Of a DNA stretch of 64,000 nt, positions 17,394-43,565 are shown piece by piece. Within the stretch, counting starts at the first letter, position 1, and each line of letters starts with the position of its first letter. This DNA comes from Rhodovulum marinum (lineage in GTDB: Bacteria; Pseudomonadota; Alphaproteobacteria; Rhodobacterales; Rhodobacteraceae): NCBI RefSeq assembly GCF_004343075.1, contig NZ_SLXP01000005.1:82936-146935 (forward strand), written 5' to 3'. The position numbers and the translations under genes are program-made. Under the pieces are notes generated by a model that had not been told where the DNA came from, did not search any database, and was given only the letters and a program-made list of their open reading frames with translations.

Positions 17394-17613
17394 GTGATGA
17401 TGAGCAGTCTTTTCTGGCTGACGGATACGCGGATGGCGCGTCTGGAGCCCTACTTCCCAAAGTCCCATGGCAAGCCAAGGGTCGATGACCGACTGGTTTT
17501 GAGCGGGATTATCTTCATAAACCGCAATGGGTTGCGCTGGCGTGACGCGCCAAAGGAGTATGGTCCCCACAAGACGCTCTACAATCACTGGAAGCGCTGG
17601 AGCAAAAGGGGTG
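17394..17613 (+). pseudogene. IS5-family (IS427-like) transposase N-terminal fragment fused to CRISPR array
   Basis: The frame from 17400 reads MSSLFWLTDTRMARLEPYFP, then KPRVDDRLVLSGIIFINRNGLRWRD and KTLYNHWKRWSKRGV. This is the first orf of an IS427-group IS5 element, including its HTH region. It then runs straight into the first CRISPR repeat at 17611; the catalytic domain and right end of the IS are missing. The GGTGTC where the fragment meets the array replaces the normal repeat start, so the junction lies within those bases. A left-end sequence for the element may lie near 17365-17390. Confidence 0.8.
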
Positions 17614-24381: not shown

Positions 24382-25838
24382 GCTGCTTTCCCCTTCTTTC
24401 TTGCCGGCAGTTCCATCCCGAGATGGGTAAAGATCTCACGCCCATGCTTGCCGTAACCTGCGAACGCACTGGCCAGGCCTTTCCGCGCCGTGACGATCTG
24501 CGCGATCCGGTCGGTTTCACGCCGGTCCAACCCGGGCACCGCCAGCGCATCGAACTGCCCAAGGGCCTGCGCGCGCAAATCGGCCCGCCAAGCGGGGCGC
24601 GGATCATGCCCCGCCTTCAGCGCTTGCACCCGGTGCAGGAACCGATCCTCGGTCGTGACAAAGAACGCCTCGCGCTCGGCTTCACGCGCCTCGCCGCCTG
24701 CCAGAACCGACTCCAGCGCCCCGCGCAACGCCACACCGGCAGCCTCGGCGGCAAGGATCATCCCCACCAGGCAGTCTTCGGCTTCGACGGGCAGGTTCAA
24801 CAGGGGTTGAACCGACAACGTGAAATCGCGCGGCTTCATGTTGTCCATGGCCCAGCCCGCGACGACGACCGACGCCTCGCCGCCCCGCAGCCCCCAGTCG
24901 CGCAGGGACAGCGACCGTTCCGAGGTTTCGCTGCCCACCTCCTGCGCCACGACGCCCAACCAGTTGCGATAGCCGAACCGGCCTGCGCGCGGGTGTTTCG
25001 GCAGCCATTCCTCGCCCGGCTTCAGGCGGTAATGGGGGCTGAGCGGGTGTTTCCACAGGGCATAGTTCGTGCCCCAGGGTTTCTGGATCACACCGGTGAT
25101 CCCCTCGTCGTCCCCGATCAGGCGCAGCCGCCGCGGCATGCCGAAGAACGCCTCGGCCCCGAAGACCCGACCCTCGGGCGGCAGGGTCTGCTGCCCCTTG
25201 TCGGAGATATTCGTCGGCCGCATCCAGGGCAGGTCGTCGAGTGTGCCGGGCGCGCCGCAGGGGACGTTGGCCCAGACCAGCGACCAAAGCCCGTCGCCCG
25301 GGTCGACCAGCGTCACAAGGGGGCCGCCGCCGCGCATCGAGGTACGGATTCCCGCCCCGCCCGCCGGGGCATGCGCTTGAAGGGCATAAAGCGCCATTGC
25401 CGCCAGCGGCAGGTCAATCCGCGGATAGCGGCCGCGGTGGACCATGAGGTCGGCATTGTTTTTTGCCGCGTTCGCCCCGGAACTGTCGATGAACAGCATG
25501 TCCACCGGGTTCGCGGCGCCCACGAGCGGCTCCAGGTCCTGAAGGAACCGCGGCCCCTCGCCCAACAGGTTGAACGCGGGCGCAAGGGGGGCCAACCGGT
25601 CCTTCAGGCGTTGCAGGTCGGGGGCCGTCCGGCGCTGCCACTCGCCGTTGTTGGCGGGCGGGTCGGCCAGAAACACCAGCCCGATCAGGAATTCATGGCA
25701 GGCGATGTTCAGATCGGGGCGCGGCCAGTCCGGGCGCAGGATGCCCGGTTCGGCCATCTGCCAGGGCGCGATCACCCGCCGCGTGCCATCGGCGCAGAGA
25801 ACCGGAATCCAAGGGTTTTCGATCAAATTGAGGGGCAT
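24378..25838 (-). CDS. cas8e: Cascade large subunit Cse1 (Cas8e/CasA)
   Basis: This 486-residue protein recognises the PAM and recruits Cas3. The N-terminus NLIENPWIPVLCADGTRR is the family signature. HEFLIGLVFLADPPANNGEWQRR, DMLFIDSSGANAAKNNADLMVHRG (the loop near the zinc/L1 region) and GGGPLVTLVDP follow in order, then a helical C-terminal bundle from about residue 340. Length is typical. A 79-bp gap separates it from cas3 upstream, the only sizeable gap in the operon; a second promoter or processing point there is possible. Confidence 0.95.
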   Translation of the reverse strand: MPLNLIENPWIPVLCADGTRRVIAPWQMAEPGILRPDWPRPDLNIACHEFLIGLVFLADPPANNGEWQRRTAPDLQRLKDRLAPLAPAFNLLGEGPRFLQDLEPLVGAANPVDMLFIDSSGANAAKNNADLMVHRGRYPRIDLPLAAMALYALQAHAPAGGAGIRTSMRGGGPLVTLVDPGDGLWSLVWANVPCGAPGTLDDLPWMRPTNISDKGQQTLPPEGRVFGAEAFFGMPRRLRLIGDDEGITGVIQKPWGTNYALWKHPLSPHYRLKPGEEWLPKHPRAGRFGYRNWLGVVAQEVGSETSERSLSLRDWGLRGGEASVVVAGWAMDNMKPRDFTLSVQPLLNLPVEAEDCLVGMILAAEAAGVALRGALESVLAGGEAREAEREAFFVTTEDRFLHRVQALKAGHDPRPAWRADLRAQALGQFDALAVPGLDRRETDRIAQIVTARKGLASAFAGYGKHGREIFTHLGMELPARKKGKAA

Positions 25839-25917
25839 GAAAAACCTCCGACCGCAACGAACAGGTGAAAGGGATCACCCGAAACGAAACCTGTAAAGGC
25901 GGTTGAATGGCAGGGTG

Positions 25918-28416
25918 TCAGCTTTCGTCATGGAAGATCAGCCCGCGTTCCGCGTCATAGCGTAACCCCGTACAGATCGCCCCGTCTTCGGCGACCGGGC
26001 ACAGGCGGTATTCGGCGCGTTTCCAGTCGGGCCATTCCCGCGTGACGGCCGCGATCTCCGGCGCCGACGGGTCGGGTAGCGGCAGGGCGTCCAGCCGGCC
26101 GATGCGGGCGGAAACCTCGGACAGCGACCAGGCCTCGGCCCCCGTCCCCTCCGCCCATGGCCGCAGGGCGCCGGCCTCCTTTCGGGCCAACACAAGCACC
26201 CGCTGCGCCTCGCCCAAACGCGTGGGATAGCGCGCGTCGTCATTGGCCTGCCCGCCGGCCCGATAGCCGGCCGCCAGATCGACGATGTTCTGCGCCGCGT
26301 GACCGCGCTCGGCGGCGCCCTGCCCTTCGGCCCTGGCTTCGGCCTCAACGAGTGCCTCGGGGACCGGCGCCGCCTCGAGCCCATGCACCGCCTCGATCAA
26401 GGCGCGCAGGCCTTCCGGTGCGTCGATCCGGCCGGCCCGGAACAGCACGTCCGCGGTACGCCACTGATCGGCGACCGGATAGACCCACGCGCCACGATCC
26501 AGCGTGCCGTGCAGCCAGCGGGCATCGACCACCTGCGCCGGATCGGACGAAACCACGTGCAAGACGGGCGCAGGCACCGGACGCGATGTGGCCGGGCGCA
26601 GGTCCATGTGCCGCCACAACCGACCGGCGCGCTGGATCAATGCCGCCATCGGCGCGAGGTCGGACACCATCACGTCGAAATCGAGATCGAGCGAGGATTC
26701 CAGAACCTGCGTGCCGACCAGCACGAAGCCTTCTCGCCCTTGCCCGTCCTTCCCCACGCGCGCCAGAACCTCGGCCTCAGTCCGCTTGCGGTCGCACAGG
26801 GCAAATCGCGCATGCAGCAGACGCGCCGAAACGCCCCGAGCGTGAAGCATCTCGACCGCGGCGATGGCATCATCCACGGCGTTGCGCACCCAGACACAGG
26901 CCGCGCCCTGTTGCGCAGACTCTGCAAGAAGATCGACCGCCTCATCCGCACACGAGAGCCGCTGGACCCCGACCGACCGCCGTGGCCCCGTCGCCTGCGG
27001 CAGGGCTGTTGGAGATGCCGCCCCCGCCACCGTCAAGGCCGGATAGGCCGGGCTGTCCGACCGACCGCCGTAGATGGCCAGCAACCGTTCACGCTGCGCC
27101 AAAGGCAGAGTCGCCGTCAGCAGGATCGCCGATCCCCCGGCCGCCCGGTGCATCCGCAGCAGCGCCTCAAGCTCGGCCCCGATATAGGGTTCCCCCAGCT
27201 CATGCACCTCGTCCACGATCAGGATCTTGGACGACAACCCGAAATGGCGCAGGGCCTGGAACCTGACCGGTAGGACCGACAACAACGCTTGGTCAATGGT
27301 CCCAACGCCGACATCAGCCAGCAGAGCGCGGCGGCGGTTTTCGGCTAACCAGTCGGTACAGGTTGCATCCTCTTCGCCGCGCGGGCCGTCGTTCACGAGA
27401 TCACGGAAATCCACGGAAAGACCGGCCCGGCCATGGGCCAGCGTCAGGGTCGTATGCCGGTCGAACAGCCGGCCGACCGATCCGGCGGCCCGACGGAACA
27501 TTGCATCCGCGGTGGCCATCGTCGGCAGCGCGAAGAACAGCCCCCGCCCCTTGCCCGCCAGCAGCATCCGCTGGGCCAGGATCAGGGCCGCCTCGGTCTT
27601 TCCCGCGCCGGTCTCGTCCTCGATGACGGCCAACATCGGGCCCTCGGCCAGGGCTACCTGCGCGCAGGCGGCCTGCATGGGGCGCAGTGTGAAATCGAAC
27701 AGGTTCGCGTCACGGGCTGTGCCCGCTGCAAGGCCCGCTTCGGTAACGGCGTTGACCGCGATTTCCTTCGATTCGGCGAGGTACGCGGACAGTGCCGATT
27801 CTGGGGCCCGGGGTCCGAACCATCGCGTATTCGATCCAACCCAGTCCGCAGCTGTGCAAAACCCCGGCAGCCACCAGGACAAAGCCGCCACCGCACGGTC
27901 ATCGGACAGCCCCTCCAGCGAGGCATCCGGCCAAAACGCACACAAGTTCTCCATCGCCTTGCGCGCATCGTCGAGGCCCGAGCCGACAGCCTGCAACGCG
28001 AGGCGGTACTCGCGGGGCCGCCGCCCCGGACACACAAGACCGCCCGTGGCGCGCTTCGGCGGCCGCCCGTGATGCCCGGCGATGGCCGCATACAGCGTTT
28101 GCCGGTGCCAGGGTGCACCACCGAGCCGTTCCCCAAGAATATGGTCCAGCTCGAACAGAAGTACTTCGGTAAGTTCCCAGTGCCGAAAAGCCTGCGGCAC
28201 ACCCTCCCGCAGCATCCGCCGGAAGCTGTCGCTGATCTTGCCCAGGTCGTGCAGGCCGACCAGAAGGACAAGTGCGTCCCGCAATGGCCAATCGAAGCCG
28301 AAGGGCTCGATCAGACGGTCTGCCACGGCCGCGACATCAAGCATGTGGTGGACCGCCATGTGTTCCGGAAGACCCAGAGCGTCGGCACTTTTTCCAGGCC
28401 AGTCGAGAAGCCCCAT
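25918..28416 (-). CDS. cas3: CRISPR-associated nuclease-helicase Cas3
   Basis: This 832-residue protein degrades the DNA that Cascade has opened. The N-terminal HD nuclease domain shows HHMLDVAAVADRL (residues 23-35), GLHDLGKISDSF (HD at 56-57) and AGHHGRPPKR. The SF2 helicase domain shows Walker A ETGAGKTEAAL (around 270-274), DEVHELGEP for the DExH box, LTATLPLAQRERLL for motif III and QRAGRLWRH for motif VI. I chose the ATG at 28416 (MGLLDWPGKSADALG) for its GGGAGAG ribosome-binding site; an in-frame ATG 45 bp upstream is less likely. It is the first gene of the cas operon, divergent from the WYL regulator. Confidence 0.95.
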   Translation of the reverse strand: MGLLDWPGKSADALGLPEHMAVHHMLDVAAVADRLIEPFGFDWPLRDALVLLVGLHDLGKISDSFRRMLREGVPQAFRHWELTEVLLFELDHILGERLGGAPWHRQTLYAAIAGHHGRPPKRATGGLVCPGRRPREYRLALQAVGSGLDDARKAMENLCAFWPDASLEGLSDDRAVAALSWWLPGFCTAADWVGSNTRWFGPRAPESALSAYLAESKEIAVNAVTEAGLAAGTARDANLFDFTLRPMQAACAQVALAEGPMLAVIEDETGAGKTEAALILAQRMLLAGKGRGLFFALPTMATADAMFRRAAGSVGRLFDRHTTLTLAHGRAGLSVDFRDLVNDGPRGEEDATCTDWLAENRRRALLADVGVGTIDQALLSVLPVRFQALRHFGLSSKILIVDEVHELGEPYIGAELEALLRMHRAAGGSAILLTATLPLAQRERLLAIYGGRSDSPAYPALTVAGAASPTALPQATGPRRSVGVQRLSCADEAVDLLAESAQQGAACVWVRNAVDDAIAAVEMLHARGVSARLLHARFALCDRKRTEAEVLARVGKDGQGREGFVLVGTQVLESSLDLDFDVMVSDLAPMAALIQRAGRLWRHMDLRPATSRPVPAPVLHVVSSDPAQVVDARWLHGTLDRGAWVYPVADQWRTADVLFRAGRIDAPEGLRALIEAVHGLEAAPVPEALVEAEARAEGQGAAERGHAAQNIVDLAAGYRAGGQANDDARYPTRLGEAQRVLVLARKEAGALRPWAEGTGAEAWSLSEVSARIGRLDALPLPDPSAPEIAAVTREWPDWKRAEYRLCPVAEDGAICTGLRYDAERGLIFHDES

Positions 28417-28635
28417 CACACTCTCCCTGTTAACTGGGCCATAAGCGCTGGAAAGACGCATGGCGATAACCCGTCTGGAAAATCGTTCAGCTCGTAAGAC
28501 ATGACCGAAGACCCAGCGCAGCTATAAAGTGCGACCTGCCGATCAACCTCACCGTCATGAAATCCGTCACTTGATACCATCCCTCGAGGCCGGAATCACA
28601 TCGACAGGCCGCATCCACGTTTCTACGCTCATACG

Positions 28636-28651
28636 GTGTCAATTTGTGTCA
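28636..28651. promoter_or_regulatory. GTGTCA direct repeat in the cas3/WYL divergent region
   Basis: GTGTCAATTTGTGTCA contains two GTGTCA units exactly 10 bp apart, one helical turn. It lies 13 bp upstream of the regulator start and 220 bp from cas3. It is a candidate site for the WYL regulator, low confidence. Confidence 0.3.
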
Positions 28652-28663
28652 TGGAATCTGCGC

Positions 28664-29665
28664 ATGTCCTCCTTCGCCAAGGCCTCCGACCTTCTTCGTC
28701 TCGCCGAGATGGCCGCCGCCCGCCACCTCGGCGTGGGCCTCCAGGACATCGAGGAGGAGTTCGACATCGACCGGCGCACCGCGCAGCGAATGACCAAGGC
28801 GTTGGAAACCCTGTTCCCTAACGTCGAGACCCGGCAGGACGAGGCCCGGCGCAAGTTCTGGAAGATCCGCGGTTCGGACGCGCAGCTGATGCTGTCGCAG
28901 GGCATCCGCGACGGCGAACTGGCCGCCCTCGAGATGGCGATCCGGCGCGCGGCACGCGACGGCGCGAGCAACGAGGTCAAGGCGCTGACCTCACTGCGCG
29001 ACCGGCTTTTGGCCAGCATGCCCGGCCCCCATGCCCGCCGCGCCGAGGCCGATGCAGAAGCGGTGCTGGAGGCGCATGGATTCGCCTCGCGCCCGGGGCC
29101 GCGGGTGCGCACCGATCCGCGCATCCTGGCGACCATCGCCGAGGCGCTGAAGGCGCCGAACATGTTGACCATCACCTATACGGGCGAGCGCGACAACGCG
29201 CCCCGCGACCGCCTGATCGAACCCTACGGCCTGCTGCTCGGCATCCGTCGCTACATCGTCGCCCGCGAAAACGGCGGCGACGGCCGGTTCCGGCATTTCC
29301 GCCTCGACCGCGTCGGCGCGGCCCGGCTGGAGCCGCACTCCTTTCAGCGCGATCCCGATTTCGACCTCGACGCCCACGCCGCCCGCGCCTTCGGTTCGTT
29401 CCACAACGAGGCCGAGTATGGCGAGGTGGTCTGGCGCTTCGCCCCCTCGGCCGCCCCGACCGCCCGCGAGTTCGTGTTCCACCCGCACCAGGAGATGACC
29501 GAGGAGGAGGACGGGTCGCTCACCATCCGCTTCCACGCCTCGGGCTGGCTGGAGATGGCCTGGCATCTCTACCAGTGGGGCGACCGGGTCGAGGTGCTGG
29601 CCCCCGAGGGCCTGCGCGCGCTGGTCGCAAGTTATCAGAGGTCCGATTTCCCGGCCTTGCCATAA
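28664..29665 (+). CDS. WYL-domain transcriptional regulator, divergent from cas3
   Basis: This 333-residue protein has an N-terminal winged helix (FAKASDLLRLAEMAAARHLGVGLQDIEEEFDIDRRTAQRMTKALETLFP, residues 3-52). A WYL domain follows around 175-250 (TITYTGERDNAPRDRLIEPYGLLLGIRRYIVAREN, HFRLDRV), then a WCX-type C-terminal extension. WYL proteins are known regulators of CRISPR-Cas, BREX and CBASS loci (the BrxR/CapW type), usually repressing until a ligand or nucleic-acid signal binds. Its position 247 bp from cas3, divergent, suggests it controls the cas operon. It could also act on the neighbouring five-gene operon. The start at 28664 is where family similarity begins; the frame is open upstream to 28529. 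Confidence 0.88.
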   Translation: MSSFAKASDLLRLAEMAAARHLGVGLQDIEEEFDIDRRTAQRMTKALETLFPNVETRQDEARRKFWKIRGSDAQLMLSQGIRDGELAALEMAIRRAARDGASNEVKALTSLRDRLLASMPGPHARRAEADAEAVLEAHGFASRPGPRVRTDPRILATIAEALKAPNMLTITYTGERDNAPRDRLIEPYGLLLGIRRYIVARENGGDGRFRHFRLDRVGAARLEPHSFQRDPDFDLDAHAARAFGSFHNEAEYGEVVWRFAPSAAPTAREFVFHPHQEMTEEEDGSLTIRFHASGWLEMAWHLYQWGDRVEVLAPEGLRALVASYQRSDFPALP

Positions 29666-30020: not shown

Positions 30021-32399
30021 TCAATATGCGTCATAGAGATCGAGCAGCAAGTTCGGATTTCCACCCTCGCCGCGCAGATATTTCAGCAGGTCGTCGAGGA
30101 TCGGCACGTATTTTTCGCGCCGTCTTGCAAAGGCCTCGTCGACACGCCGACGCGACATCAGATCTTGTCGCGCGGCTTCGATCACCTCGAACAGGCTGTC
30201 GGCGAGGGTGTCATTGCCGGTCAGCAGGGCCCTCGGCTCCTTCAGCCTCCAGCGGAGGAGTCCGCCGACAAGGAAGGGGGCGTAATTGAACCGGGTATAG
30301 TGCCCGCCCAGTTCCTCGCGAAACTCGATGACCGCGCGTTGCCCGATCTCGTCAACATCCTGGCGCTCGAGAAGCATCGGCGCGGTTTCGGATCTCGAGA
30401 GCATCAGCGCAACACACGCGCTTTCGGCACGATAACTCCAGCGTTCGATTCCACGGCGCAGCACAGCGCGCAACACCCGTTCCTCCAACGCGGCATCCCG
30501 CACGGTTCTGGAAAAGCCTTGATAGATCAGCACCCAATTACTCTGGTGCCAGATGAACGGATGCGTGCCGATGGTTCCGGCATGGTTTTCGATACAGGTT
30601 GCGAGCCATTCGCTGACTTCGGTCGGACAACGTCGGAATTGCCAGGTCAGGAACTTAAGGGCTGCATTGTCCCGTATCCCCTGGGCCGGTCGCGACGTAA
30701 GGCGCTCAGCCGTAACGGTCAACGCGGCGTGCGTAAGCATGTCGAGTTGGCGGACGGCATCATCCGAAACCTCCGCCGGGAGGTGCCCATCGCTCGAGAC
30801 ACAGTATTCCTGATAGGGCCGCGCCGCCGCCTTGCGGGCATAAGGCTCCCAATCAGAGACCCCGTTGCTCTCCATCTGGTCGAGCAGCGTGAACATGCCG
30901 GGGGCACCCGATGAATCCCGCCAGGGATGCATGCCGCATTTCAGCACTAGGCGGTCCGGAAAGGCGGGCGGGGGCGTTTCAAGTGCCGTGATGATGTCGT
31001 CCCAAGCGCGCTCGTCGTCTTCGGCGTTTTCCCAGTCTATGGTGATGCTGCGTGCCAGAGATGGGACCTCCAATACGATCCTGGCGCGACCGGCAGCCGG
31101 TTTCTGTTCGACCCAGACAGAGACGGGCGTCTCCTTCTTTAGCGCGACATCCAGCTTGACAAGCGCCTTGCGGGGATGCGGTGCTGCATCCTTTCGGAGA
31201 TAAACGGGTATTTCGTCGACGCCCTTCGGGATCGCGAACACTGCGGGGCGAGGGCTGCGATAGATATGCCCCGCTTCGAGCGTTTCACTTTCGTCAATCA
31301 AATCGAAATTCTGCGCCCGGCCATTCGAAGAGACGATCGTGGAGATTCGTGGAAGAAAGTCGAAATAGACAGGATCGCCGTCACTCATGCGGCAGGCGGC
31401 GACAAGAGCACCCTTCGCGACCGCATCCGGCGGCAAGGTTTGCAGGTCTCCGATCTTGAGATCGGTTATCAGTGTCGCAAGGTGTGAGCGGACGTCGCCT
31501 TCTGCGATGGTCTCGAGGAACACCTGATCGCAGTCCCCCAGGGACGGGAAAGGGCCGTCCATCGTAAACGCGGGCAGATCACCCGCGCCCGCGAGCGCGA
31601 TCTCTTCCCAGTCACCGTTCGGCAGGCGCAGGATCTCTCGATCGCAACGCAGACCGAGCGCGAGGCGACCGACCGTTCGCGCCATGGCAAGATTGGCGGC
31701 CCGACCGTTTCCACCGTTGTCTCCGATCACCCGATGCCTCACGCGTTCGACGAGGTCTCGCAAACCTATCGAACACCCAAGCATTTGCGCCGCGTTCCGC
31801 CGCTCGGGCGCAAGAACGTCTCGGAGGGTGCCAGCACGGCGCACTCGAAGCTTCTGGACTGAAAGCCCCGACGATGCGTGGGACACGATCCCGACGGTGC
31901 ACTCTTCTTCGATCATACCGGCATCAATGGCGTAAAGAATACCTAGAACCGTCCGCCAGACCAAGGCTGCGTTCCGCATTCTGGCTTGGGACAGCCCGGC
32001 GAGCAGGCGTTCCTGCAAAGTCTCCGTGGTCTCGGGGCTGTCCTCGATTGCCAGCACCGTATGGGCGGCACCGCGCGCCAGATCAGAGAAGGCTGCAGCC
32101 AATTGTTGCGGACCGCCCGACACTCCTTCCAACAAGGCTCGCAACTGGATTCGTCGGCTTTCGTCTCCGATCGCGCCCCAGCCACCGCCAAGCCCGTGTG
32201 GCGCAATATCGGCCGGAAACCCGCCGATCCATCGACCCGTGCGTTCATCGCCGATGCGAACGACCGACCCGAGCGGCCCTGCGGCTCGGACATGAACGCC
32301 ACCGATCCGTTCGTCCTCGCCCGGGAAAGTGGTCCAGTTGCGTGCGACGTGATCGCGCCAGCCGTTGATATCGAGACCGGCAGCCTTCCTCCTGCTCAT
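30021..32399 (-). CDS. Large protein of the five-gene defence operon, possible Hsp70/actin-like fold
   Basis: This 792-residue protein has no clear family call by eye. The N-terminal third (about 1-260) has the rhythm of an Hsp70/actin-like ATPase. One strand-rich segment around 60-120 is followed by AALVWRTVLGILYAIDAGMIEEECTVGIVSHASSGLSVQKLRVRR (about 143-187), resembling a phosphate-2 region, but the usual DLGGGT residues are degenerate. A beta-rich middle follows (about 370-470). The C-terminal third is helical, with a basic end (RRRVDEAFARRREKYVPILDDLLKYLRG). There are no membrane segments. It is the last gene of the operon, overlapping its upstream neighbour by ATGA at 32396-32399. The fold assignment is tentative. 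Confidence 0.55.
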   Translation of the reverse strand: MSRRKAAGLDINGWRDHVARNWTTFPGEDERIGGVHVRAAGPLGSVVRIGDERTGRWIGGFPADIAPHGLGGGWGAIGDESRRIQLRALLEGVSGGPQQLAAAFSDLARGAAHTVLAIEDSPETTETLQERLLAGLSQARMRNAALVWRTVLGILYAIDAGMIEEECTVGIVSHASSGLSVQKLRVRRAGTLRDVLAPERRNAAQMLGCSIGLRDLVERVRHRVIGDNGGNGRAANLAMARTVGRLALGLRCDREILRLPNGDWEEIALAGAGDLPAFTMDGPFPSLGDCDQVFLETIAEGDVRSHLATLITDLKIGDLQTLPPDAVAKGALVAACRMSDGDPVYFDFLPRISTIVSSNGRAQNFDLIDESETLEAGHIYRSPRPAVFAIPKGVDEIPVYLRKDAAPHPRKALVKLDVALKKETPVSVWVEQKPAAGRARIVLEVPSLARSITIDWENAEDDERAWDDIITALETPPPAFPDRLVLKCGMHPWRDSSGAPGMFTLLDQMESNGVSDWEPYARKAAARPYQEYCVSSDGHLPAEVSDDAVRQLDMLTHAALTVTAERLTSRPAQGIRDNAALKFLTWQFRRCPTEVSEWLATCIENHAGTIGTHPFIWHQSNWVLIYQGFSRTVRDAALEERVLRAVLRRGIERWSYRAESACVALMLSRSETAPMLLERQDVDEIGQRAVIEFREELGGHYTRFNYAPFLVGGLLRWRLKEPRALLTGNDTLADSLFEVIEAARQDLMSRRRVDEAFARRREKYVPILDDLLKYLRGEGGNPNLLLDLYDAY

Positions 32400-33901
32400 G
32401 TCGGCAAGCCGTAGAATTCGCTGCGCACGAATTCACGAACGGCACGCAGTCCTGCTGCCAGGCTTTCACCCGAAGCACCCAATGCAATGCCGTTTACGCG
32501 GCTGACCCTCCCGTTAGCTCGCGCGGTCTCGGGACTGCCGTGAGCGGGAGTGAGAATGAGTCCGTGACGGAGGATTTCGGTCATGGCGAGCGGTTGCAAT
32601 TGATCGACAAGGGCCGCTGCCTCCTGCACGGCAGCGTCAAGATCGATGCGCCGCATGGCGTGGGGCGTCCAAACGGCGACACGGTGCGGGATTTCCGAAC
32701 GTGTCGGGTCCGTAATCCTGAGCGCAACATGCGCTCGCGCTGCCGTGAGCAGCGAGCCAGGTGTCTCCGGCCGCGCTTGCACCTCAACGATCCGGCCGGT
32801 CTTACGCAGCCAGAAGACGGCGATCGGCCGGTCCTGGTCGAACCAGCGGCCCGTCTCGGCCTCTGCCCGCCAGTTGATCGGAGACTGGGCAACAAGCTGG
32901 GCTTCATCGAGTTCATCAATGGCAAGCGTGACTGCAAGAACCGCGAAATCGGTCCATGTCTGCGCCTGCCATGCCCACAGGTCGTCAATCGCCTTGTCGC
33001 GTTTCAGCAATCGCTCCCAACCTTCGCGAACACTGCGGTAGTCCCGATCCTGCATGAGGACGTAGTTGGGTGTGCAACCCGGTTCCGCGACGGACACATC
33101 GAGCTCCACCAAGACCGCCCCAAGAGTTCGGCATGTCTTGCGGAGAGCATCGACCTGGGCGTATCGGGCGCTTTCCTTTGCCCGAGGATGCTCACGCATC
33201 CACTCCCGTGCCGCGTCGGCGGCGAGCCGGGCATATGCATGGAGAACTCGATTCTCGAGTGTGTCGAAGTTTTCCTGTCGAACCGTCGCGAGGATCCGCT
33301 GTCCGGCGCCTGCGCGCTCCGCCACGCTTCGCCCCGGTTGGCGGCTGAGCCAGACCATCGAGGCCCGGTCCATCTCTTGCACGCGGTCCAGAGGTGTAAG
33401 TTCCCTATGGCGCCGAAGCACGCGCCGGATGCGTTTAAGCAATGCACCTAGGACCGGCTTGAGTTCCCGTGCCTGCTTGACGATCTCGGCCATACGAGGG
33501 TCTTCTTCCCGTTCTGCGCGCTTCCAGGCGGCCCGCAAACGTGCCCATACATCACTCGGATCATCGAGCGCCTCTTCCAGCTCCTGAATCCGCGCGAGCA
33601 CCTCGTTCATCCAACGCAAAGCGTCCGCGGCAAAGAGCTCGCTTTCGTCCTTGGGATCATGCCCTTTGCGCGGACGGCTGGGGAATCCCGCTCTATCCGG
33701 GTTCTCCGCCTGCTCGCGCTTGGGATAGGGGCAGAGCGCCAGGCAGGTATCCTGCCCCCGGACGTTTCCCTTCATGAGAACTGCATGTTGCACGCCCCTC
33801 GGCGGCAAGCCTTCGTAGGCGATCATCAGGCAATCGTCGGGTCCAAAAGGTCGGTCCTGCGGAAGGGGGTGCGCGGACCAGGGCCGCGGCAATCTTCGCA
33901 T
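32396..33901 (-). CDS. DUF2357/McrC-like protein of the defence operon
   Basis: This is a 501-residue protein. LATVRQENFDTLENRVLHAYARLAADAAREWM (about 205-236) matches the DUF2357 pattern seen in McrC-type partners, where D-T-x-E-N-R is conserved. The C-terminal part should be the PD-(D/E)xK nuclease, but only a degenerate version is visible: DQDRPIAVFWLRKTGRIVEVQARPE, with EVQ in place of ExK. It may have lost cleavage activity, leaving the helicase-fused nuclease as effector. The start at 33901 overlaps the upstream stop as TGATG; an ATG 21 bp upstream is possible. By analogy with McrC it would stimulate the McrB-like ATPase. Confidence 0.65.
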   Translation of the reverse strand: MRRLPRPWSAHPLPQDRPFGPDDCLMIAYEGLPPRGVQHAVLMKGNVRGQDTCLALCPYPKREQAENPDRAGFPSRPRKGHDPKDESELFAADALRWMNEVLARIQELEEALDDPSDVWARLRAAWKRAEREEDPRMAEIVKQARELKPVLGALLKRIRRVLRRHRELTPLDRVQEMDRASMVWLSRQPGRSVAERAGAGQRILATVRQENFDTLENRVLHAYARLAADAAREWMREHPRAKESARYAQVDALRKTCRTLGAVLVELDVSVAEPGCTPNYVLMQDRDYRSVREGWERLLKRDKAIDDLWAWQAQTWTDFAVLAVTLAIDELDEAQLVAQSPINWRAEAETGRWFDQDRPIAVFWLRKTGRIVEVQARPETPGSLLTAARAHVALRITDPTRSEIPHRVAVWTPHAMRRIDLDAAVQEAAALVDQLQPLAMTEILRHGLILTPAHGSPETARANGRVSRVNGIALGASGESLAAGLRAVREFVRSEFYGLPT

Positions 33902-35919
33902 CAGCGCGTAACTCCGCTCCACACAAACTGACCGGTCTCCTCGGATGACTGAATCGAGTCGGAGATTGCGTGGGCCAGCTTCTCGTCACCAAGGTCTTGC
34001 TCCACGAAGGTCCTGAGCCGGGAAAAATGTGCAGCAGCGACCTCCACATCGACACCTCTGAGTTTCGGGAGTAGGCGCATCTCAACCTGATCCGCCAGCG
34101 CGTCTTCGATCGGCCGGGTGCCTTCCGCTTTGGGATAGTTGGCAACGTAGGCCATGATTGCCCGACCCAGCCGGTGTCCGATCGGCCGTTTGAGGTCTTT
34201 CATGATCTCGACCATCGTCTCTACGCTGTTGCGAACCCGGGCTTCGCCTTCGACCTCCGAGACGGGACGTACCCAGCCTTGCCAGCGTTCCTGCGACAAG
34301 GCCCGCACCTCCGAAACCTCGCCTTCCGGCCGTGCGGTGTTGATCGCGCGAGGTGCAGCGAAACGCAAAACGTTCGCGCGGTCGACGACCTTGTCAGACA
34401 AAGACTGTGTGCTTTCGTCTTCGTTCATCGTGCCCGCAAATAGCAGATTGTAGCCTGGGAAGATGCGCGGCGGGTACTGCATGTTGGGGATTTCGAGTTC
34501 GATTTCGGCGTCCTTGCGTTCGTTGGCGTCACCGACGTCTTCCGGTTTCGGACGGCTTTCAAGCCGGCTCAGGAAGTCGGAGAAATAGTATTCGACTCGC
34601 GCCAGGTTCATCTCGTCGAGGAGGATCATCATCATGCGATCCTGTATGGCGTCGTCATTGTTGATCTCGTCCAGTGCCCAGAGGGCCCTTGCCATGTCGG
34701 TAGGCCGGAACTTGCCTTCGATGTAGTTGTAGAAACCCATCAGGTCCTGTGGGCTGTCCCATCTCGGCTGAACTGGAACCTGCAGGAACCCGATTCCCAT
34801 GCCGGCCGCGTATTGCCGTGGAAGTTGGCTCTTGCCGGTGCCCGAAATCCCGGCAAGCACCGCCATCTGCGTGGTTTCGTTCACCTTCATGGCGGTATGA
34901 AAGGCATAAAGCGTTCGGGCCGGATAATGGAGGCCCTTCGCCCGGAAGCGCCGTTCCACCCGTTTGAGCGCGTCGGTTTCGTTCTCTCGGTCAGCGAGAG
35001 GCCAGTCAAGCATGGCCCGGATGACGGGCGGCTCTTCCCGAAGCTCGCGCAGCTTGTCGCTCTCGGCAGCCTCGCCATCCGGCGTACGTCCTTCTGCTTT
35101 GGCAATTTCCCCCTTGAGATAGGCAAGCCGCGCTTCCAGGGCGGTTCGCGTTTCTCCGAGGGCTTCGAGTTCTCCCTGCTGGCGCCGAAGCTCGACCTTT
35201 TCTGCTGCAGACTGCGCTTCGGTGCGCGAGTGCTCCGACTGCACCTCGGCCAACGCATCTCGCGCCTTCGCAACGCGGGCTGTGAGTTCGGCCAGTTCAT
35301 CGTTCTGCGATGCAATTCGCCCTTCCAGACGGGCGCAGTCGGCTTCAAGCTCGTTTCCGCGGTCTTCCAGGCGCGCCACGCGAGCCTCGGCCTCTTCGAG
35401 CCGGCGAAGTTCACCACGCATCGCCTCGACCTTGCCCGATATCTCGGCGTGCTCGTTGGTCAAAGCGTCAATCCTGCCGACAAGCTCCTCCGCTTTTTCA
35501 AGGCGTTCCTTGACCGAGAGATATTCGGCCCGCAGCGGGGCGAGCTCGGCTTCGAGCGACTGGCGCTCGATGACGACATCCTCGATTTCGCGGCGCATGG
35601 CCTGAACTTCTTCACGCTTGTCACCCATCGCGTTCCATTCCGCGAGGAGTTCTTCTTTCTGTCGGCGCAGCCCGTCGACCTCGGCGCCGATATCAGCGAC
35701 AACCGCCATCGCCTCGCGCCGTTTGGCGAGTTCCTCCTCAAGGTCGTCCATGAGGCGCTGCTTCTCTTCGAGGCGTTTTTCATAGACGGCAAGCTCCTCG
35801 ATGGGGCCGGCAGCAGAAACCAGACGATCCTGCCGGATCGCGAGGGTGATCTGCACAATCGCCAAAAGCGCGAGAGCGCCGACGATGATGAACACGATCA
35901 GGGTATTGTCGGTGATCAT
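33901..35919 (-). CDS. Membrane-anchored coiled-coil McrB-like AAA+ NTPase
   Basis: This 672-residue protein has one N-terminal membrane helix (residues 6-28, TLIVFIIVGALALLAIVQITLAI), a long charged coiled coil (about 40-290) and an AAA+ module of McrB type. Walker A is GISGTGKS (357-364), Walker B MMILLDEMNLARVEYYFSDFL (430-450), and the McrB signature is GTMNEDEST (496-504) in place of MNTADRS. RWDSPQDLMGFYN and RANVLRF also fit McrB. McrB itself is a GTPase that drives an McrC nuclease. The coiled-coil and membrane additions fit the CoCoNuT class of McrBC derivatives. It overlaps the preceding gene by ATGA (35916-35919) and the next by TGATG. Confidence 0.85.
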   Translation of the reverse strand: MITDNTLIVFIIVGALALLAIVQITLAIRQDRLVSAAGPIEELAVYEKRLEEKQRLMDDLEEELAKRREAMAVVADIGAEVDGLRRQKEELLAEWNAMGDKREEVQAMRREIEDVVIERQSLEAELAPLRAEYLSVKERLEKAEELVGRIDALTNEHAEISGKVEAMRGELRRLEEAEARVARLEDRGNELEADCARLEGRIASQNDELAELTARVAKARDALAEVQSEHSRTEAQSAAEKVELRRQQGELEALGETRTALEARLAYLKGEIAKAEGRTPDGEAAESDKLRELREEPPVIRAMLDWPLADRENETDALKRVERRFRAKGLHYPARTLYAFHTAMKVNETTQMAVLAGISGTGKSQLPRQYAAGMGIGFLQVPVQPRWDSPQDLMGFYNYIEGKFRPTDMARALWALDEINNDDAIQDRMMMILLDEMNLARVEYYFSDFLSRLESRPKPEDVGDANERKDAEIELEIPNMQYPPRIFPGYNLLFAGTMNEDESTQSLSDKVVDRANVLRFAAPRAINTARPEGEVSEVRALSQERWQGWVRPVSEVEGEARVRNSVETMVEIMKDLKRPIGHRLGRAIMAYVANYPKAEGTRPIEDALADQVEMRLLPKLRGVDVEVAAAHFSRLRTFVEQDLGDEKLAHAISDSIQSSEETGQFVWSGVTR

Positions 35920-37526
35920 TCTCCCGTCTCCGCTTCTTGCGAGGTCGCCTCGTTTCCGGCTGCCGCGGCCTCCGAAAGCCTGTCGCGCCGATTCGCCAAG
36001 GCGTCTTCGGCGGCGGCAATGCGCGCTTGCAGGTCTTCGATGCGATCCTGAAGATCGGTGCGCCGTTCGGCGACGGCGTTCAGTTCGGCCCGGGCCGTCG
36101 CCTTCTCTGCCTCGAGAGAAGCGAGGGTCGATTGTGCTGCTTCTGCCGCCGCTTCGGCGGCCTCCGTCGCCGCGATCAATTCGGATTGCTGCTGCTCGAG
36201 TTGCGCTATCCGCTCTTCCAGCACCGAGGCACGCCCGGTCAATGCGGCGACGGTCTCGCGCGCGGCATCCACCCGCGCCTGTTCCTGGTCCGCAAGCGCG
36301 CGCGCGGCATCCGCCTCCTGCCGCAAGCCGGGTAGCGCGCTTTCCAAGCCGGCCTTTTCCGCCTGAAGGCGCTCGACATCAGCTGACAAACCCTCGACTT
36401 CCATCCGCAGCACATCCAGTCTGGTCACCTCCGCTTCCGCGCTATCGACCCGCGCACGAAGTGCTGCGAGCGCGTCAGCAAGCGTAGCCTCTTCCGAGCG
36501 GGACGATTTCAGCGCCTCTGTGGTTTGCGCCAGTTGCGCACGAGCCTCCAAGAGCCGCTCTTCCGCAAGCTTGGCTTGGGCGTCCAACTCTTCTGCCGTG
36601 GTTCGCTTCACCGCCAACTCGGCGATTAGGGCGTCGCGCGTTTCGCTAAGATCGGTCAGATCGCCGTTCAGCGTTTCGACCGATACCCTCAGTGTTTCCG
36701 CCTCTTCCGTGCGCGCGGCGATCGCGTCCTGAATACCGCGGAGAGTTTCATTCGCGGCGGCAAGCGTGGCCCTGGTTTCACTCTCTTCGGTCCGAAGCCC
36801 CTCAAGAACCGACCCCAAGCGATCCTCTTCGTTTTCGAGGTTCCGCACCTGCCGTATCTGGGCCTCGAGGTCTTTCACCTGTGGCCCCAACTCGTCGAAT
36901 TGAGCTTGAAGGGCATCCCGTTGACCCGTGAGCTGGTTATTTTCCTCTGCGAGACGGGCATTCCTCGCCTCCGCCTCATCGCTTCTTTCGGTCAAGGACT
37001 GAACGGTCTTCTCGAGAGACGCGATCTCGGCCTCGAGTTCCCGTCTGCGCGCGGTCAGGTCGCGGGTTTCGCGCCGCAAACGCTCCGCTTCTGCAATGGT
37101 GGACCGCGCCGCACTCGTCTCTGCCGCAAGCGCTTCGAACTCCGTACGGGCCGCCTCGATCCTCTTTAGAGCATCGGCCTCCAGTTTTCTGGCACTTTCC
37201 AGGGCCTCTTGGCGCGCAGCGACTTGTTCTGCGAGATCAGCCTCGGAAGCCCGAAGCCCCAGGATTTCGAACCTTGCCGCCGCCACCAATTCACGTGCCG
37301 CATCACGTTCCTTGATCGCGCTCGCAAGCTGGTTCTGCAAATGCGGCAGATCGCTCTTTATCCGTCCGTATTCCCGATCCAGACCATTGACCTGAAACAG
37401 GAGGTATCCCGACGTTGCCAAGGCGACCGTCGCGAGTCCGAGCGCTACAAAGGTGTTGCGGCTGGATTTACGAGAGGTCCCGTTCGACGATGTCAATGCA
37501 TCCCTCCATATCCTTTGCAAGTTCAT
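35916..37526 (-). CDS. Membrane-anchored coiled-coil protein of the defence operon
   Basis: This 536-residue protein has a short cytoplasmic N-terminus, one membrane helix (about residues 28-46, VALGLATVALATSGYLLFQV) and then about 480 residues of nearly unbroken coiled coil rich in Glu, Ala, Arg and Leu. There is no recognisable enzyme domain. It pairs with the next gene, which has the same helix-plus-coiled-coil plan, so the two may form a membrane-attached sensor or scaffold. The start at 37526 (MNLQRIWRDAL) overlaps the helicase gene by 59 bp; the frame is also open to an ATG at 37577. Long coiled coils give spurious similarity to SMC-like proteins, so I do not assign a family. Confidence 0.75.
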   Translation of the reverse strand: MNLQRIWRDALTSSNGTSRKSSRNTFVALGLATVALATSGYLLFQVNGLDREYGRIKSDLPHLQNQLASAIKERDAARELVAAARFEILGLRASEADLAEQVAARQEALESARKLEADALKRIEAARTEFEALAAETSAARSTIAEAERLRRETRDLTARRRELEAEIASLEKTVQSLTERSDEAEARNARLAEENNQLTGQRDALQAQFDELGPQVKDLEAQIRQVRNLENEEDRLGSVLEGLRTEESETRATLAAANETLRGIQDAIAARTEEAETLRVSVETLNGDLTDLSETRDALIAELAVKRTTAEELDAQAKLAEERLLEARAQLAQTTEALKSSRSEEATLADALAALRARVDSAEAEVTRLDVLRMEVEGLSADVERLQAEKAGLESALPGLRQEADAARALADQEQARVDAARETVAALTGRASVLEERIAQLEQQQSELIAATEAAEAAAEAAQSTLASLEAEKATARAELNAVAERRTDLQDRIEDLQARIAAAEDALANRRDRLSEAAAAGNEATSQEAETGE

Positions 37527-40500
37527 CGACCCAGAACCGACGGACGCGCCATCCCAACGATTTGAGCTGGTGATCACGCCAAAGATCGGATGTTTTCCGG
37601 CGTCCGTCCGGTGTCTGGTGCCAGCGTCGCCCGTCCACCTCTAGATCGAGCTTCACGCCATTGGTGCCAAACAAGGCGAAGTCGAGCCGCCGCCCGGCGA
37701 TCTCGTGCTGCGGCTCCGGATCGAGACCGCGTTCCTTGAGGGCGTAGAAAACCCGCCGCTCCCAATCGCTGTCGAAAACACCTTCACCGGACTGCCGTTT
37801 CGGCTCGGTCGCCCGGGCGTCCAGGGTCCTAAGCGTCTTGGACCTACCGGACCGGGCGAATTCCAGATCGCCGAAGATCATCGCGATGGCCCGCGCCCGC
37901 GAGATCGCGACGTTGAGCCGCCGCGCGTCCCTTTGGAAGAAAGTCAGTCCCGATTGCGGGCTGCGGGGGCCAACGCAGGGTGAAAACAGGATCAGATCCC
38001 GTTCCTGCCCCTGAAAGCCATCCACCGTCCCGATCTTCAGATCGGCCGCCACCCGCTTATGTTCCGGTATGCTCGCCACTGCTTCCTGCAAGGCCATCAC
38101 CTGGGCGCGGAACGGTGTGATAACGCCGACGCTCCCCTGATAATCCTGCTCCTCCAGAAGAAGCCGTAAATGTCGCGTGATCGCGGAAACCTCTGCGGGA
38201 TTGACATTTCCGGCCTGCGGAATTCCGGGCGCCGGAACGTGTTCCCAAGCCAGGCCAGGCTTGGCGCCCTTCGGCAGGATAAGGCCCTTGGGGTCATAGG
38301 AGGTCTCGAGCTGGCCGCCGTAGAAGTAGTCGCTGATGTACTCGACGATCGGGCCGGCGGAGCGATACTGATGGCGCAGCGTGACGCGCGGCACATCCGG
38401 CACGCGCGAGGCGAAGTCGAACAGCGAACGCCGGCTTTGTGCGAACCGCGCCATCTTCGCGACCGGGAGGTTCTGCGCCTGCATGAGGTTCCTGTCCTGT
38501 GCGCGCCCCAATTGCGCAATGAAAGACAGCTGTTGATCGTCACCGACGACCACCGCCCTCTTGGCCCGGGCGAATAGTGGGATGGCTGTGGCGATGTCGC
38601 ACTGGCTTGCCTCGTCGAAGATGACCAGATCGAAGAGCCCGTCATCGAGGGGGATACGCCGCGGCGTTCCGAGGATGGAGGCCAGCCAGAGTGGCCTGTG
38701 CTCCAGAACGGCCCGGGATAGGTCGTTGGGAAGGTGCCCCCTTCCCCCGGCAAAGGTCCAGTCGTCGTAGGTCTCGGCGATCGCCTGCCGCCTTGCCTCG
38801 CCGATAGCCGTTCGGCGATGCATCGCCCGCGGAAGAACCGCTTTCGCAAGCTCTTGAACGCGTTCTCCGAGTTCGACCGGGTCCGCGACCGGTTGCAGCG
38901 CATCGCGGGACGCCCGCTTGCGGTCAAGTTGGCTTCGCAGATCGGACAAGCTTGCACCATGGAGTAACGTTTCACCGGAAGCCGTCTGCGAACCCGTTCC
39001 TTTGGAGAACATGCGAAGAAGTAAGACGATAAGGCGGCGCCATAGGGACAGCGCCGGAGCAACGGGTGCATGGTCAAGGTCCCGCCTGCCGCGGCTCTCC
39101 CGATAGGCTACGCTTTCAAGCAGATCGGCGATTTCGCATTCCAGCTCCGCACGTGCGGAAAGAGTATCGATCGCAGCGCTCCTTTCGCGGGCTGCCACCC
39201 TCAGGTCGCCGATCATCGCATCATCGAAATCTCCGAGATGTTGATGCGCGTGATCCCGGTCGATCAACGCCTTCAACGCATCGACGAAACCGATATCGAT
39301 CTCCTCTTCGGGCTTAAGCGTGCGCGTCACGAACGGGGCATCGGGCGCAAGCGCGCCAAGGCGGTCTTCGACGGCGTCTAACGCCTGATGGTTCTTCGAT
39401 GCCACCAGAACGCTGCCTCCGGACAGCAGAACCGATGCGGCCATGGATACGATTGCCTGGCTCTTGCCGGTTCCCGGCGGTCCGGTCACGACCGAGAGGG
39501 CTTCGGAACAGGCATTTCGGACCGCCATGGTCTGTTCCGCATTCAACGGACCGACGTTGATCGCGGCAAAGTCCCGGACATCAGCCTGCGATGCGATGCC
39601 GAAGACTTTCGCAAGGGCAGTGCGGGCGATTCTCTCGGTTGGCCAAGTCGCGATCGTGTCCAGATCCCGCGCGGCGCCGGCGGTGAAGCTCGAGTCCGTT
39701 GGAAGAAACAGCGCTGCCGCATCGAAGATTCCGGTCGAGGTCTCATCGAGCCGGGGGGCAAGATCTTCGCCGACGAGACGTCCACGGATTTGGCTCGCCA
39801 CCGCATCCTTTACCTTCAGGAGGAAATCGCTTGCATGCAGGCCGACTCCGTCCTCCGCATCGAACAGTTCCCTGAGCGCATCTCGGTGCCACCCGGTCTG
39901 ACGCGCCGCTTCGCGAAGCCAATCCGGATTCACCAGCACATCGTCCGCATCTACCGACAGCACGAGGTCGCCGTCGCGGCGTTCCCACCTCGCGGAAAGC
40001 AATCCGACCGGCTGAAAGGCTGGAACACCCCGTACCCTCGTGACGGCCATGGGCCAGCCGACGGCAAGCGCGTTCTCGTGACCTTCCCTGAGCACGATCG
40101 CTTCACGGAATGATGGCGTCAGTGCATCCAGCGCCATGGTTAGCCTTAGCGTTTCGCCTTCCGAAGGTGCGATCGGTCCGCGCCCGCAAATGAGGGTCCA
40201 TTCCACCCCGTGCTTGTCGGCAACTTGCGTGGTCGCCCCGCGCGGGTCCGCGCGGAGGGCCGAGCGCCAGTATCGCAAAAGGGCCTGATAATCGACGGTT
40301 GCTCCGACCTCGCCCGGATCCAGCGGCGACTGTTCCTCATCGGGAGCCGGCATTCGCGCGAACAGCGCAGGCGCCGCAACAAGATCATTCCGGGATTGTT
40401 CCGGCTGGGAGCCGGCATGTGCGCTGCCAGCGCCTACCCTTTCGTCAATTCGGCGCGAAGCCACACGCCACTTTCCATCGCGCCCCCTCTCGACGTGACC

Positions 40501-40638
40501 ATCGCGCAGGAGATGATCCAACTCCGCTAATGCGGCCAAGCGTTTGTCATGGGAGAATGCTGCACCGACCAAGACAAGTAATTCCTCGGTCGTGCGTCCG
40601 CGCGGAAACGCCTTCAAGGTACGAAAAAGAAGCGACAT
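37468..40638 (-). CDS. UPF1-like SF1 helicase fused to Vsr/DUF559-like nuclease
   Basis: This is a 1056-residue protein. An N-terminal winged-helix-like segment (residues 1-62, LFRTLKAFPRGRTTEELLVLV) precedes an SF1 helicase of the UPF1/DNA2/NAM7 type: Walker A VVTGPPGTGKSQAI (386-393), motif II FDEASQCDIATAIPL (675-679), motif III GDDQQLSFI, motif IV RHQYRS, motif V TVDGFQGQERDLILFS and motif VI NVAISRAR. The last 95 residues (about 957-1050) are a Vsr/DUF559-like endonuclease: DSDWERRVFYAL, RRLDFALF, KLDLEVDGRRWH and GWRVRRFWVDEL. It is the first gene of the operon. The start at 40638 fits the winged-helix onset; an ATG 30 bp upstream also exists. Probably it unwinds and cuts nucleic acid of invaders. 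Confidence 0.88.
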   Translation of the reverse strand: MSLLFRTLKAFPRGRTTEELLVLVGAAFSHDKRLAALAELDHLLRDGHVERGRDGKWRVASRRIDERVGAGSAHAGSQPEQSRNDLVAAPALFARMPAPDEEQSPLDPGEVGATVDYQALLRYWRSALRADPRGATTQVADKHGVEWTLICGRGPIAPSEGETLRLTMALDALTPSFREAIVLREGHENALAVGWPMAVTRVRGVPAFQPVGLLSARWERRDGDLVLSVDADDVLVNPDWLREAARQTGWHRDALRELFDAEDGVGLHASDFLLKVKDAVASQIRGRLVGEDLAPRLDETSTGIFDAAALFLPTDSSFTAGAARDLDTIATWPTERIARTALAKVFGIASQADVRDFAAINVGPLNAEQTMAVRNACSEALSVVTGPPGTGKSQAIVSMAASVLLSGGSVLVASKNHQALDAVEDRLGALAPDAPFVTRTLKPEEEIDIGFVDALKALIDRDHAHQHLGDFDDAMIGDLRVAARERSAAIDTLSARAELECEIADLLESVAYRESRGRRDLDHAPVAPALSLWRRLIVLLLRMFSKGTGSQTASGETLLHGASLSDLRSQLDRKRASRDALQPVADPVELGERVQELAKAVLPRAMHRRTAIGEARRQAIAETYDDWTFAGGRGHLPNDLSRAVLEHRPLWLASILGTPRRIPLDDGLFDLVIFDEASQCDIATAIPLFARAKRAVVVGDDQQLSFIAQLGRAQDRNLMQAQNLPVAKMARFAQSRRSLFDFASRVPDVPRVTLRHQYRSAGPIVEYISDYFYGGQLETSYDPKGLILPKGAKPGLAWEHVPAPGIPQAGNVNPAEVSAITRHLRLLLEEQDYQGSVGVITPFRAQVMALQEAVASIPEHKRVAADLKIGTVDGFQGQERDLILFSPCVGPRSPQSGLTFFQRDARRLNVAISRARAIAMIFGDLEFARSGRSKTLRTLDARATEPKRQSGEGVFDSDWERRVFYALKERGLDPEPQHEIAGRRLDFALFGTNGVKLDLEVDGRRWHQTPDGRRKTSDLWRDHQLKSLGWRVRRFWVDELAKDMEGCIDIVERDLS

Positions 40639-43480: not shown

Positions 43481-43496
43481 TGGTGCCCGCGGCCGG
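43481..43496 (-). repeat. attR: 3' end of intact tRNA-Leu
   Basis: TGGTGCCCGCGGCCGG is the 16-bp identity with attL at 11097-11112, covering the CCA end and acceptor strand of the tRNA. Confidence 0.88.
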
Positions 43497-43565
43497 ACTC
43501 GAACCGGCACGGCGTTCGCCTAGGGATTTTAAGTCCCCTGTGTCTACCAATTCCACCACGCGGGC
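43481..43565 (-). tRNA. tRNA-Leu (anticodon TAA)
   Basis: Read on the minus strand the gene is 85 nt, from GCCCGCG to GCGGGCACCA. The acceptor stem GCCCGCG pairs with CGCGGGC. The anticodon stem GGGGA/TCCCT encloses CTTAAAA with anticodon TAA. A long variable arm (class II) and the T-arm with GGTTCGAGTCC follow, and CCA is encoded. The gene is intact because the island restored its 3' end on integration. Confidence 0.97.

Follow-up and report, generated by a model that had tools for sequence, protein, structure and literature searches.

Does the operon at positions 30021-40638 of a 64,000-nucleotide stretch of Rhodovulum marinum (contig NZ_SLXP01000005.1, positions 82,936 to 146,935; this whole stretch is called the window below) encode a new type of defence system or a described one? 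The first-pass annotation, made from the sequence alone, had recognized in its five genes a CoCoNuT-like architecture derived from McrBC and had suggested that two membrane anchors and a large last gene may mark a new type. The architecture was borne out and the novelty was not. The gene set equals that of the Type III-B CoCoNuT of Bell et al. (2024, eLife, PMC11090510; all statements on this paper refer to its main text), and the outcome named beforehand as speaking against a new type, namely that one known subtype would account exactly for all five genes, is what was found; a new system type was rejected on this ground. Of the two signs of novelty, the large last gene is CnuD, already described, and the two membrane segments are conserved. 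Since all five genes were matched one by one, the operon is almost certainly a Type III-B CoCoNuT. The fuller reading adopted here, a Type III-B CoCoNuT lying on a probable tRNA-Leu island and probably acting as a membrane-tethered antiviral machine, is given a probability of about 0.78. The genes and their main features in the window are as follows (aa, amino acids; SF1, superfamily 1):

37468-40638, minus strand: gene 1, CnuH, UPF1-like SF1 helicase with a C-terminal Vsr-like PD-(D/E)xK nuclease, 1056 aa from ATG 40638
37483-37770, minus strand: Vsr-like nuclease domain of CnuH, with E970, D996, E1010 and D1012 (numbered from GTG 40668)
35916-37496, minus strand: gene 2, CnuA, predicted N-terminal transmembrane segment and long coiled coil (coiled-coil model matches)
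37395-37451, minus strand: predicted CnuA transmembrane segment FVALGLATVALATSGYLLF, Kyte-Doolittle mean 1.89
33901-35919, minus strand: gene 3, CnuB, predicted transmembrane segment, coiled coil and McrB-type NxD GTPase, 672 aa
35842-35898, minus strand: predicted CnuB transmembrane segment IVFIIVGALALLAIVQITL, Kyte-Doolittle mean 2.84
34828-34851, minus strand: CnuB Walker A motif GISGTGKS, read in the sequence
34417-34425, minus strand: CnuB NxD signature NED, the form of the CoCoNuT branch in place of the NxxD of canonical McrB
32396-33901, minus strand: gene 4, CnuC, McrC-like DUF2357 protein, 501 aa from ATG 33901 or 508 aa from GTG 33922
30021-32399, minus strand: gene 5, CnuD, Hsp70-like protein with a helical C-terminal part, 792 aa

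In Type III-B as described, CnuH carries a directly fused Vsr-like nuclease, CnuA is a separate protein, CnuB is present, CnuC has its nuclease domain inactivated, and CnuD is a separate Hsp70-like protein with HEAT-like repeats; TerY-P is absent (PMC11090510). Further features of the type are an Ig-like domain at the N-terminus of CnuC and, in CnuH, an N-terminal winged helix-turn-helix and an OB fold. The operon shares the CnuH-Vsr fusion, the separate CnuA, the coiled coil and NxD GTPase of CnuB, a CnuC without nuclease motif, the separate Hsp70-like CnuD and alphaproteobacterial relatives; TerY-P was found neither among the window genes scanned nor in the annotated region of R. leguminosarum. 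It differs by the N-terminal membrane segments of CnuA and CnuB, which the main text of PMC11090510 does not mention. The same paper places Type III-B primarily, though not only, in Alphaproteobacteria, and contigs titled Thermodesulfobacteriota, Planctomycetota, Lentisphaerota and Verrucomicrobiota carried the gene set as well. With the new-type question closed by a described subtype, the additions to it are modest: the conserved anchoring predicted for both CnuA and CnuB, with consequences for the site of action and for RNA versus DNA as target, and a host range covering several phyla beyond Alphaproteobacteria, together with a probable integrative island that holds a copy as well as CRISPR-Cas.

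Other systems share parts of this architecture. The plasmid pSYSX of Synechocystis (L109; handles in L denote loci and those in G genomes), assigned here to Type III-C by the published description of that type, displayed a CnuB that is McrB-like and has a hydrophobic segment at its N-terminus, a DUF2357 CnuC and a large last protein, but its effector is of PLD type and encoded by a separate gene instead of being a fused Vsr. Loci from Caballeronia (L110), Klebsiella (L111) and Photobacterium (L139), typed II/III-A and probably III-A from their annotated neighbours, shared the helicase, the McrB-type GTPase protein and the DUF2357 protein; they differed by kinase and phosphatase genes upstream, a separate gene after the helicase, a DUF2357 protein of 1104-1348 aa and a CnuB without N-terminal hydrophobic segment. 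CoCoPALM systems are characterized by a transmembrane FtsB-like and coiled-coil fusion to an NxD McrB GTPase, linked to signal-peptidase-family genes (PMC11090510). The operon has this kind of fusion, but also CnuH-Vsr and CnuD, and membership was rejected as no signal-peptidase-family gene occurs among its five genes. Canonical McrBC, as in E. coli, was rejected as well: an McrB-type GTPase and an McrC-like partner are common to both, but the signature is NED (NxD) here instead of NxxD, and the intact nuclease motif belongs to the helicase rather than to the McrC-like protein, CnuC being without conserved nuclease motif. No DNA-binding specificity domain was matched in gene 3 in the family-model scans of window proteins.

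As the first-pass annotation had it, the five genes are intact open reading frames (ORFs), all on the minus strand and each overlapping its neighbours, and coordinates gave the overlaps ATGA (genes 2/3), TGATG (genes 3/4) and ATGA (genes 4/5) that it reported. Its 59-bp overlap between genes 1 and 2 did not stand as well. This length holds if gene 2 starts at ATG 37526, and becomes 29 bp with TTG 37496; the latter start is judged likelier because GGAGG lies six bases upstream (37503-37507) and because the TTG is equivalent to an MTSSN start picked by script in four of nine relatives. The GC content of the operon was 0.622, against 0.669 for the whole window. The operon is real and intact, and its gene arrangement is not due to chance, since the five genes were ordered in nine of 13 fetched relatives (remnants occurring in three others and a cut by the contig end in one) and were all found in 67 of 78 loci.

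These loci came from a scan of genome contigs with the gene 3 alignment, which yielded 203 relatives from 287 candidate stretches; the best 80 were kept and represented 77 distinct loci, to which one viral contig was added. Genes 3, 4 and 5 were adjacent and in order in all 78. In L063, genes 4 and 5 form one ORF of 1292 aa (L063:3190-7068), either because CnuC and CnuD are naturally fused, as they are in Type III-A, or through a frameshift in the draft. Gene 1 was present in 68 loci. For gene 2, identified in the other loci from its location ahead of gene 3, there was a candidate in 74; 57 of the 67 complete loci were without short or fused member. Among the ten loci without gene 1, nine had a contig end at its expected place, which for L093 and L096 is downstream of the other genes, as in their relatives L098, L101 and L104. 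In these last three (Verrucomicrobiota and Lentisphaerota contigs), CnuH is placed after CnuD and not at the operon front. In L105, gene 1 was not found within the 22 kb of the locus.

Contig titles indicated Alphaproteobacteria, Competibacteraceae, Thermodesulfobacteriota, Planctomycetota, Lentisphaerota and Verrucomicrobiota, several contigs being metagenome-assembled genomes. Across 390 genomes of the order, gene 5 was matched in 14, gene 4 in 12 and both in 11. The three genomes with gene 5 alone corresponded to a contig end (G195) and to remnants (G086 and G124), and the one with gene 4 alone to a 70-residue fragment (G101). At the genus level, gene 4 occurred in one of 16 genomes, the window's own. 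Decayed operon remnants were observed in L019, L028 and L029. A complete five-gene operon was also recorded on a 62-kb contig filed as viral (IMGVR_UViG_3300033183_000484, L107/L138), which may be a mobile island and not a phage; it was the single viral contig, found by two scans.

At the protein level, CnuH agreed with its earlier description as a UPF1-like SF1 helicase with a C-terminal Vsr/DUF559-like nuclease. Pfam matches were AAA_12 (1.3e-31), AAA_11 (1.1e-17), MTES_1575 (1e-13) and DUF559 (5.5e-6), and 23 PDB sequences were matched, SEN1, UPF1 and SMUBP-2 among them; MTES_1575 was also matched in each of the six CnuH scanned from distant loci. The nuclease residues E970, D996, E1010 and D1012 were invariant in all 61 aligned CnuH of at least 900 aa, and the helicase motif residues were likewise kept in all of them. 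In the Rhizobium tropici group (L042-L045, L134), CnuH is split into pieces of 317 and 732 aa, between which IS21 genes are annotated in R. tropici CIAT 899.

The window's own CnuC matched DUF2357 weakly (E 0.0011, under the Pfam cut-off), but DUF2357 was matched at E<=1 in all 55 sequences of the CnuC alignment A4 (window's own included), with a best value of 6.2e-17, and residue M8 was invariant throughout. Its AlphaFold2 model (pLDDT 93.5) displayed strands at residues 8-63, in the N-terminal part where the type has its Ig-like domain, and Foldseek returned 181 matches up to E 10, of which the four at E<=0.001 were all chains of McrBC complexes (best 6hz4_M, E 5.9e-7, TM-score 0.21 by query). 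These chains are taken as McrC, the titles being without chain names. A profile of CnuC against PDB sequences gave one unrelated match (E 1). The DUF2357/McrC-like assignment of gene 4 was upheld. Across 79 aligned CnuC, the C-terminal region held no conserved D-ExK set; the PD-(D/E)xK motif is lost, and retention of the fold is judged solely from the McrBC match. Because CnuC is without this conserved set whereas the nuclease residues of CnuH are invariant, CnuH is the likely nuclease of the system.

CnuD was the weakest assignment by sequence, and its Hsp70-like identity was decided by its structural model. The window's own protein had no Pfam, NCBIfam or PADLOC match, Pfam HSP70 was matched in a single one of the 55 CnuD of alignment A3 (window's own included), and the CnuD profile reached Hsp70 chains at E 0.03-0.06 only and DnaK at 0.29. 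The AlphaFold2 model computed from 55 sequences (pLDDT 91.2, pTM 0.72) gave 173 Foldseek matches at E<=0.001, with ATP-bound DnaK (4b9q) as the best (E 1.8e-11, 703 alignment columns, TM-score 0.36 by query). Among the 50 matches listed, 48 were titled Hsp70, Hsp110 or their complexes, and the other two were ciliary central-pair entries whose titles do not name the chain. By hhalign, A3 matched 18 DnaK proteins (obtained from 20 DnaK loci) with 71.6% and E 3.5e-5, and its 24 CnuD from loci L079-L106 did so with 95.7% and E 9.8e-9; controls remained at 0.2% and 0.1% for reversed profiles and at 1.9%, 0.1% and 0.1% for genes 1, 3 and 4 against DnaK. The suggestion of an Hsp70-like fold in the last gene was thereby confirmed at the level of the model. 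As to the HEAT-like repeats of the type, residues about 500-791 of this model are mostly helical. ATP hydrolysis by CnuD is doubtful, as ten alphaproteobacterial members display D-[LIV]-N-G-[WF] in the region aligned to the first phosphate motif of DnaK.

Gene 3 carries the McrB-type NTPase previously proposed, its motifs GISGTGKS, LLDEMN and MNEDES being identified by reading. It also gave the sole strong PADLOC match of the operon (PDC-M26A, 7.1e-44), a name (PDC-M26) that was not found in the literature searched. A Walker A motif G-[IV]-SGTGK-[ST] and the NED signature each occurred in all 78 CnuB aligned (minimum length 400 aa), counts that are biased because both locus-search patterns, one of them GTMNEDE, lie within or next to the GTPase domain. 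In a tree of this domain made of 52 hand-chosen rows, without a reference set of all types, two III-A-like CnuB paired (100/98) outside a 49-row fork holding the window; support for the fork was just 84/76, pSYSX fell inside it and branches were long. Upstream of the GTPase, CnuB residues about 40-290 matched SMC/Rad50-type coiled-coil models.

Both CnuA and CnuB had been read as coiled-coil proteins with membrane segments, and these segments proved to be conserved. A segment was called where the best 19-residue Kyte-Doolittle mean reached at least 1.6 within the first 130 residues; near-copies of L042 (L043-L045), loci with a broken gene 3 (L040 and L063) and ORFs open at a 5' contig end were left out of the counts. 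This gave a segment for CnuB in 68 of 70 loci and for CnuA in 64 of 67, and the threshold was met again beyond the segment in none of the CnuB and in two of the CnuA. Both CnuB misses lay near the threshold (L093, 1.44; L105, 1.57), as did that of CnuA in L041 (1.54). The other CnuA misses were L090, with a 2.55 segment further in, and L032, an ORF of 293 aa at a contig start. Lysine and arginine (K/R), counted over 15 residues on each side of the segment, pointed to an N-out/C-in orientation for CnuB in 67 of 68 loci. In CnuA, 28 of the 39 near loci had more K/R before the segment than after it and two had fewer, but of the 25 loci of the far group L079-L106, nine had more before it and 13 more after it.

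Could these segments be buried helices opening soluble coiled coils instead of transmembrane anchors? The anchors are predicted from hydropathy, which leaves room for that explanation, but 19-residue means reach up to 3.4 in CnuB, and most CnuB have no K/R before the segment and one to five after it. Moreover, the segment was absent from the three Type II/III-A-like CnuB (L110, 0.05; L111, -0.24; L139, -0.53), two of which have about 480 residues before Walker A. It was present in the pSYSX CnuB fitting Type III-C (2.39); these four comparators are few. A search for further III-A-like CnuB in 398 genomes of the phylum gave three matches (the window's own, G014 and the new G488); the GTPase frame of G488 spans 590 aa between stop codons and reaches a hydropathy of no more than 0.46 over its first 200 residues, and was excluded from the comparison as its start is unclear. 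Buried helices are very unlikely, and CnuB is with high probability membrane-anchored. The main text of Bell et al. contains no mention of CnuA or CnuB anchors for Type III-B (words starting with 'membrane' and 'anchor' occur 0 times, and 'transmembrane' six times, never about III-B; PMC11090510), and such anchors may be noted in its supplements or figures.

Starting from the gene set, folds, motifs, predicted anchors and co-occurrence observed, we infer how the proteins may form a complex, what may trigger it, which substrate (DNA or RNA) it would attack and with what outcome. CnuB would be tethered by its one N-terminal transmembrane segment, its coiled coil and GTPase being cytoplasmic according to the positive-inside rule, and CnuA, likewise anchored and with a coiled coil, would be its partner. 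As in McrBC, the CnuB GTPase subunits may form a ring at the inner membrane, which CnuC would enter and activate. CnuD, whose phosphate-binding motifs are degenerate, is probably an ATP-binding protein that senses nucleic acid or unfolded protein or serves as an adaptor for them. CnuH would translocate along the target and cut it with its Vsr-like nuclease, the operon's only intact-looking one. The likely outcome is that the phage genome, as it comes in or is newly transcribed, is restricted at the inner membrane, or else that the infection is aborted.

The chances that the system cuts DNA rather than RNA appear evenly balanced. A Type III-B CoCoNuT could instead sense and destroy RNA or translation complexes, its anchors merely holding it at polysomes or keeping it inactive, an explanation to which we grant somewhat less than an even chance. 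The UPF1-like helicase of CnuH favours it, but the sole nuclease that looks intact is of the Vsr kind, and Vsr is an enzyme that cuts DNA. Folds of this kind can, however, act on RNA, and relatives of the Hsp70-like CnuD bind RNA and ribosomes (PMC11090510). Bell et al. themselves lean to RNA as the III-B target, by similarity to III-A; a membrane anchor, on the other hand, is no part of their model (PMC11090510).

That the operon is antiviral is strongly favoured over a role in stress response or envelope quality control. An Hsp70-like protein together with membrane anchors would suit the latter, and a function in crowding stress was suggested for Pseudo-Type I-B CoCoNuTs (PMC11090510). It is nevertheless improbable in view of the patchy spread of the genes (one of 16 genomes of the genus, and 11 of 390 of the order for genes 4 and 5), of the nuclease and helicase motifs kept and of the defence genes found among neighbours. 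Flanks were sampled with at most two ORFs per locus, none above 900 aa and up to 48,684 residues, which retained 96 of 273 ORFs, none after L096, and 94 proteins after two L042 rows were dropped. The families listed for them (the top 25 out of 184 in one scan and out of 98 in the other) included Type I restriction-modification, GmrSD, GajB (Gabija), mad2/mad3 (MADS) and BrxL (BREX-type). In R. leguminosarum, Shedu and restriction-modification genes stand beside the operon, and the window itself has CRISPR-Cas.

Several points weigh against the membrane-tethered antiviral machine as proposed. The listed flanking families also comprised metabolic ones (urocanase, thiolase and aldehyde dehydrogenase), and the flank survey had no control set. 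The transmembrane calls are predictions from hydropathy alone, and the K/R balance of CnuA differs between near loci and far group, so that its coiled coil could face the opposite membrane side from that of CnuB. TM-scores were low for CnuD with DnaK (0.36) and for CnuC with McrBC (0.21), which is expected for partial or flexible matches. An N-terminal winged helix-turn-helix of CnuH is merely hinted at by Pfam: winged-helix matches were scattered over the 61 N-terminal stretches of alignment A6 (window's own included), the commonest in three members with a best E of 0.04, and the Pfam scan gave none in the window's own N-terminus. Finally, no experimental test of any Type I-III CoCoNuT was found in the portion of the literature searched.

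The genomic setting had been described as a tRNA island beside CRISPR-Cas, which is probable from the following features:

11097-11112, no strand assigned: left-hand 16-bp repeat, second copy of the tRNA-Leu 3' end (exact match)
11264-12457, plus strand: tyrosine integrase (Arm-DNA-bind_3 4.1e-19, Phage_int_M 9.9e-13, Phage_integrase 2.2e-8)
17613-20139, plus strand: type I-E CRISPR array, 42 exact repeat copies with a constant 61-bp period
20510-28461, minus strand: type I-E cas genes (Cas3, Cse1, Cas7 (CT1975), Cas5, Cas1e, Cas6e, Cas11e)
28529-29665, strand opposite to the operon and cas3: WYL/WCX-domain protein, between cas3 and the operon
43481-43496, minus strand: right-hand 16-bp repeat, the tRNA-Leu 3' end
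43481-43565: tRNA-Leu

Positions 11097-43496 of the window probably form a tRNA-Leu integrative island, with 32.4 kb between repeats and the integrase gene 151 bp inside the left one. Besides the operon, it contains the type I-E CRISPR-Cas, the WYL protein, an IS110 transposase and a DDE transposase ORF. The 16-mer occurred in none of 300 first-order Markov windows. The island ends are taken to be only probable because this test was made after the repeat had been noticed and because the same repeat search gave a 17-bp match of the outer tRNA flank (43584) with 46216, which has no obvious meaning. The WYL/WCX protein possibly regulates CRISPR-Cas or the operon. An ORF of 958 aa at 13620-16496, without Pfam (E 0.001) or PADLOC match, resembles primase-helicase-like proteins of integrative elements. 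Elsewhere in the window, a long C-rich tract was observed at 1082-1237, with about 95 bases matching poly-C at 89%, followed by further C runs.

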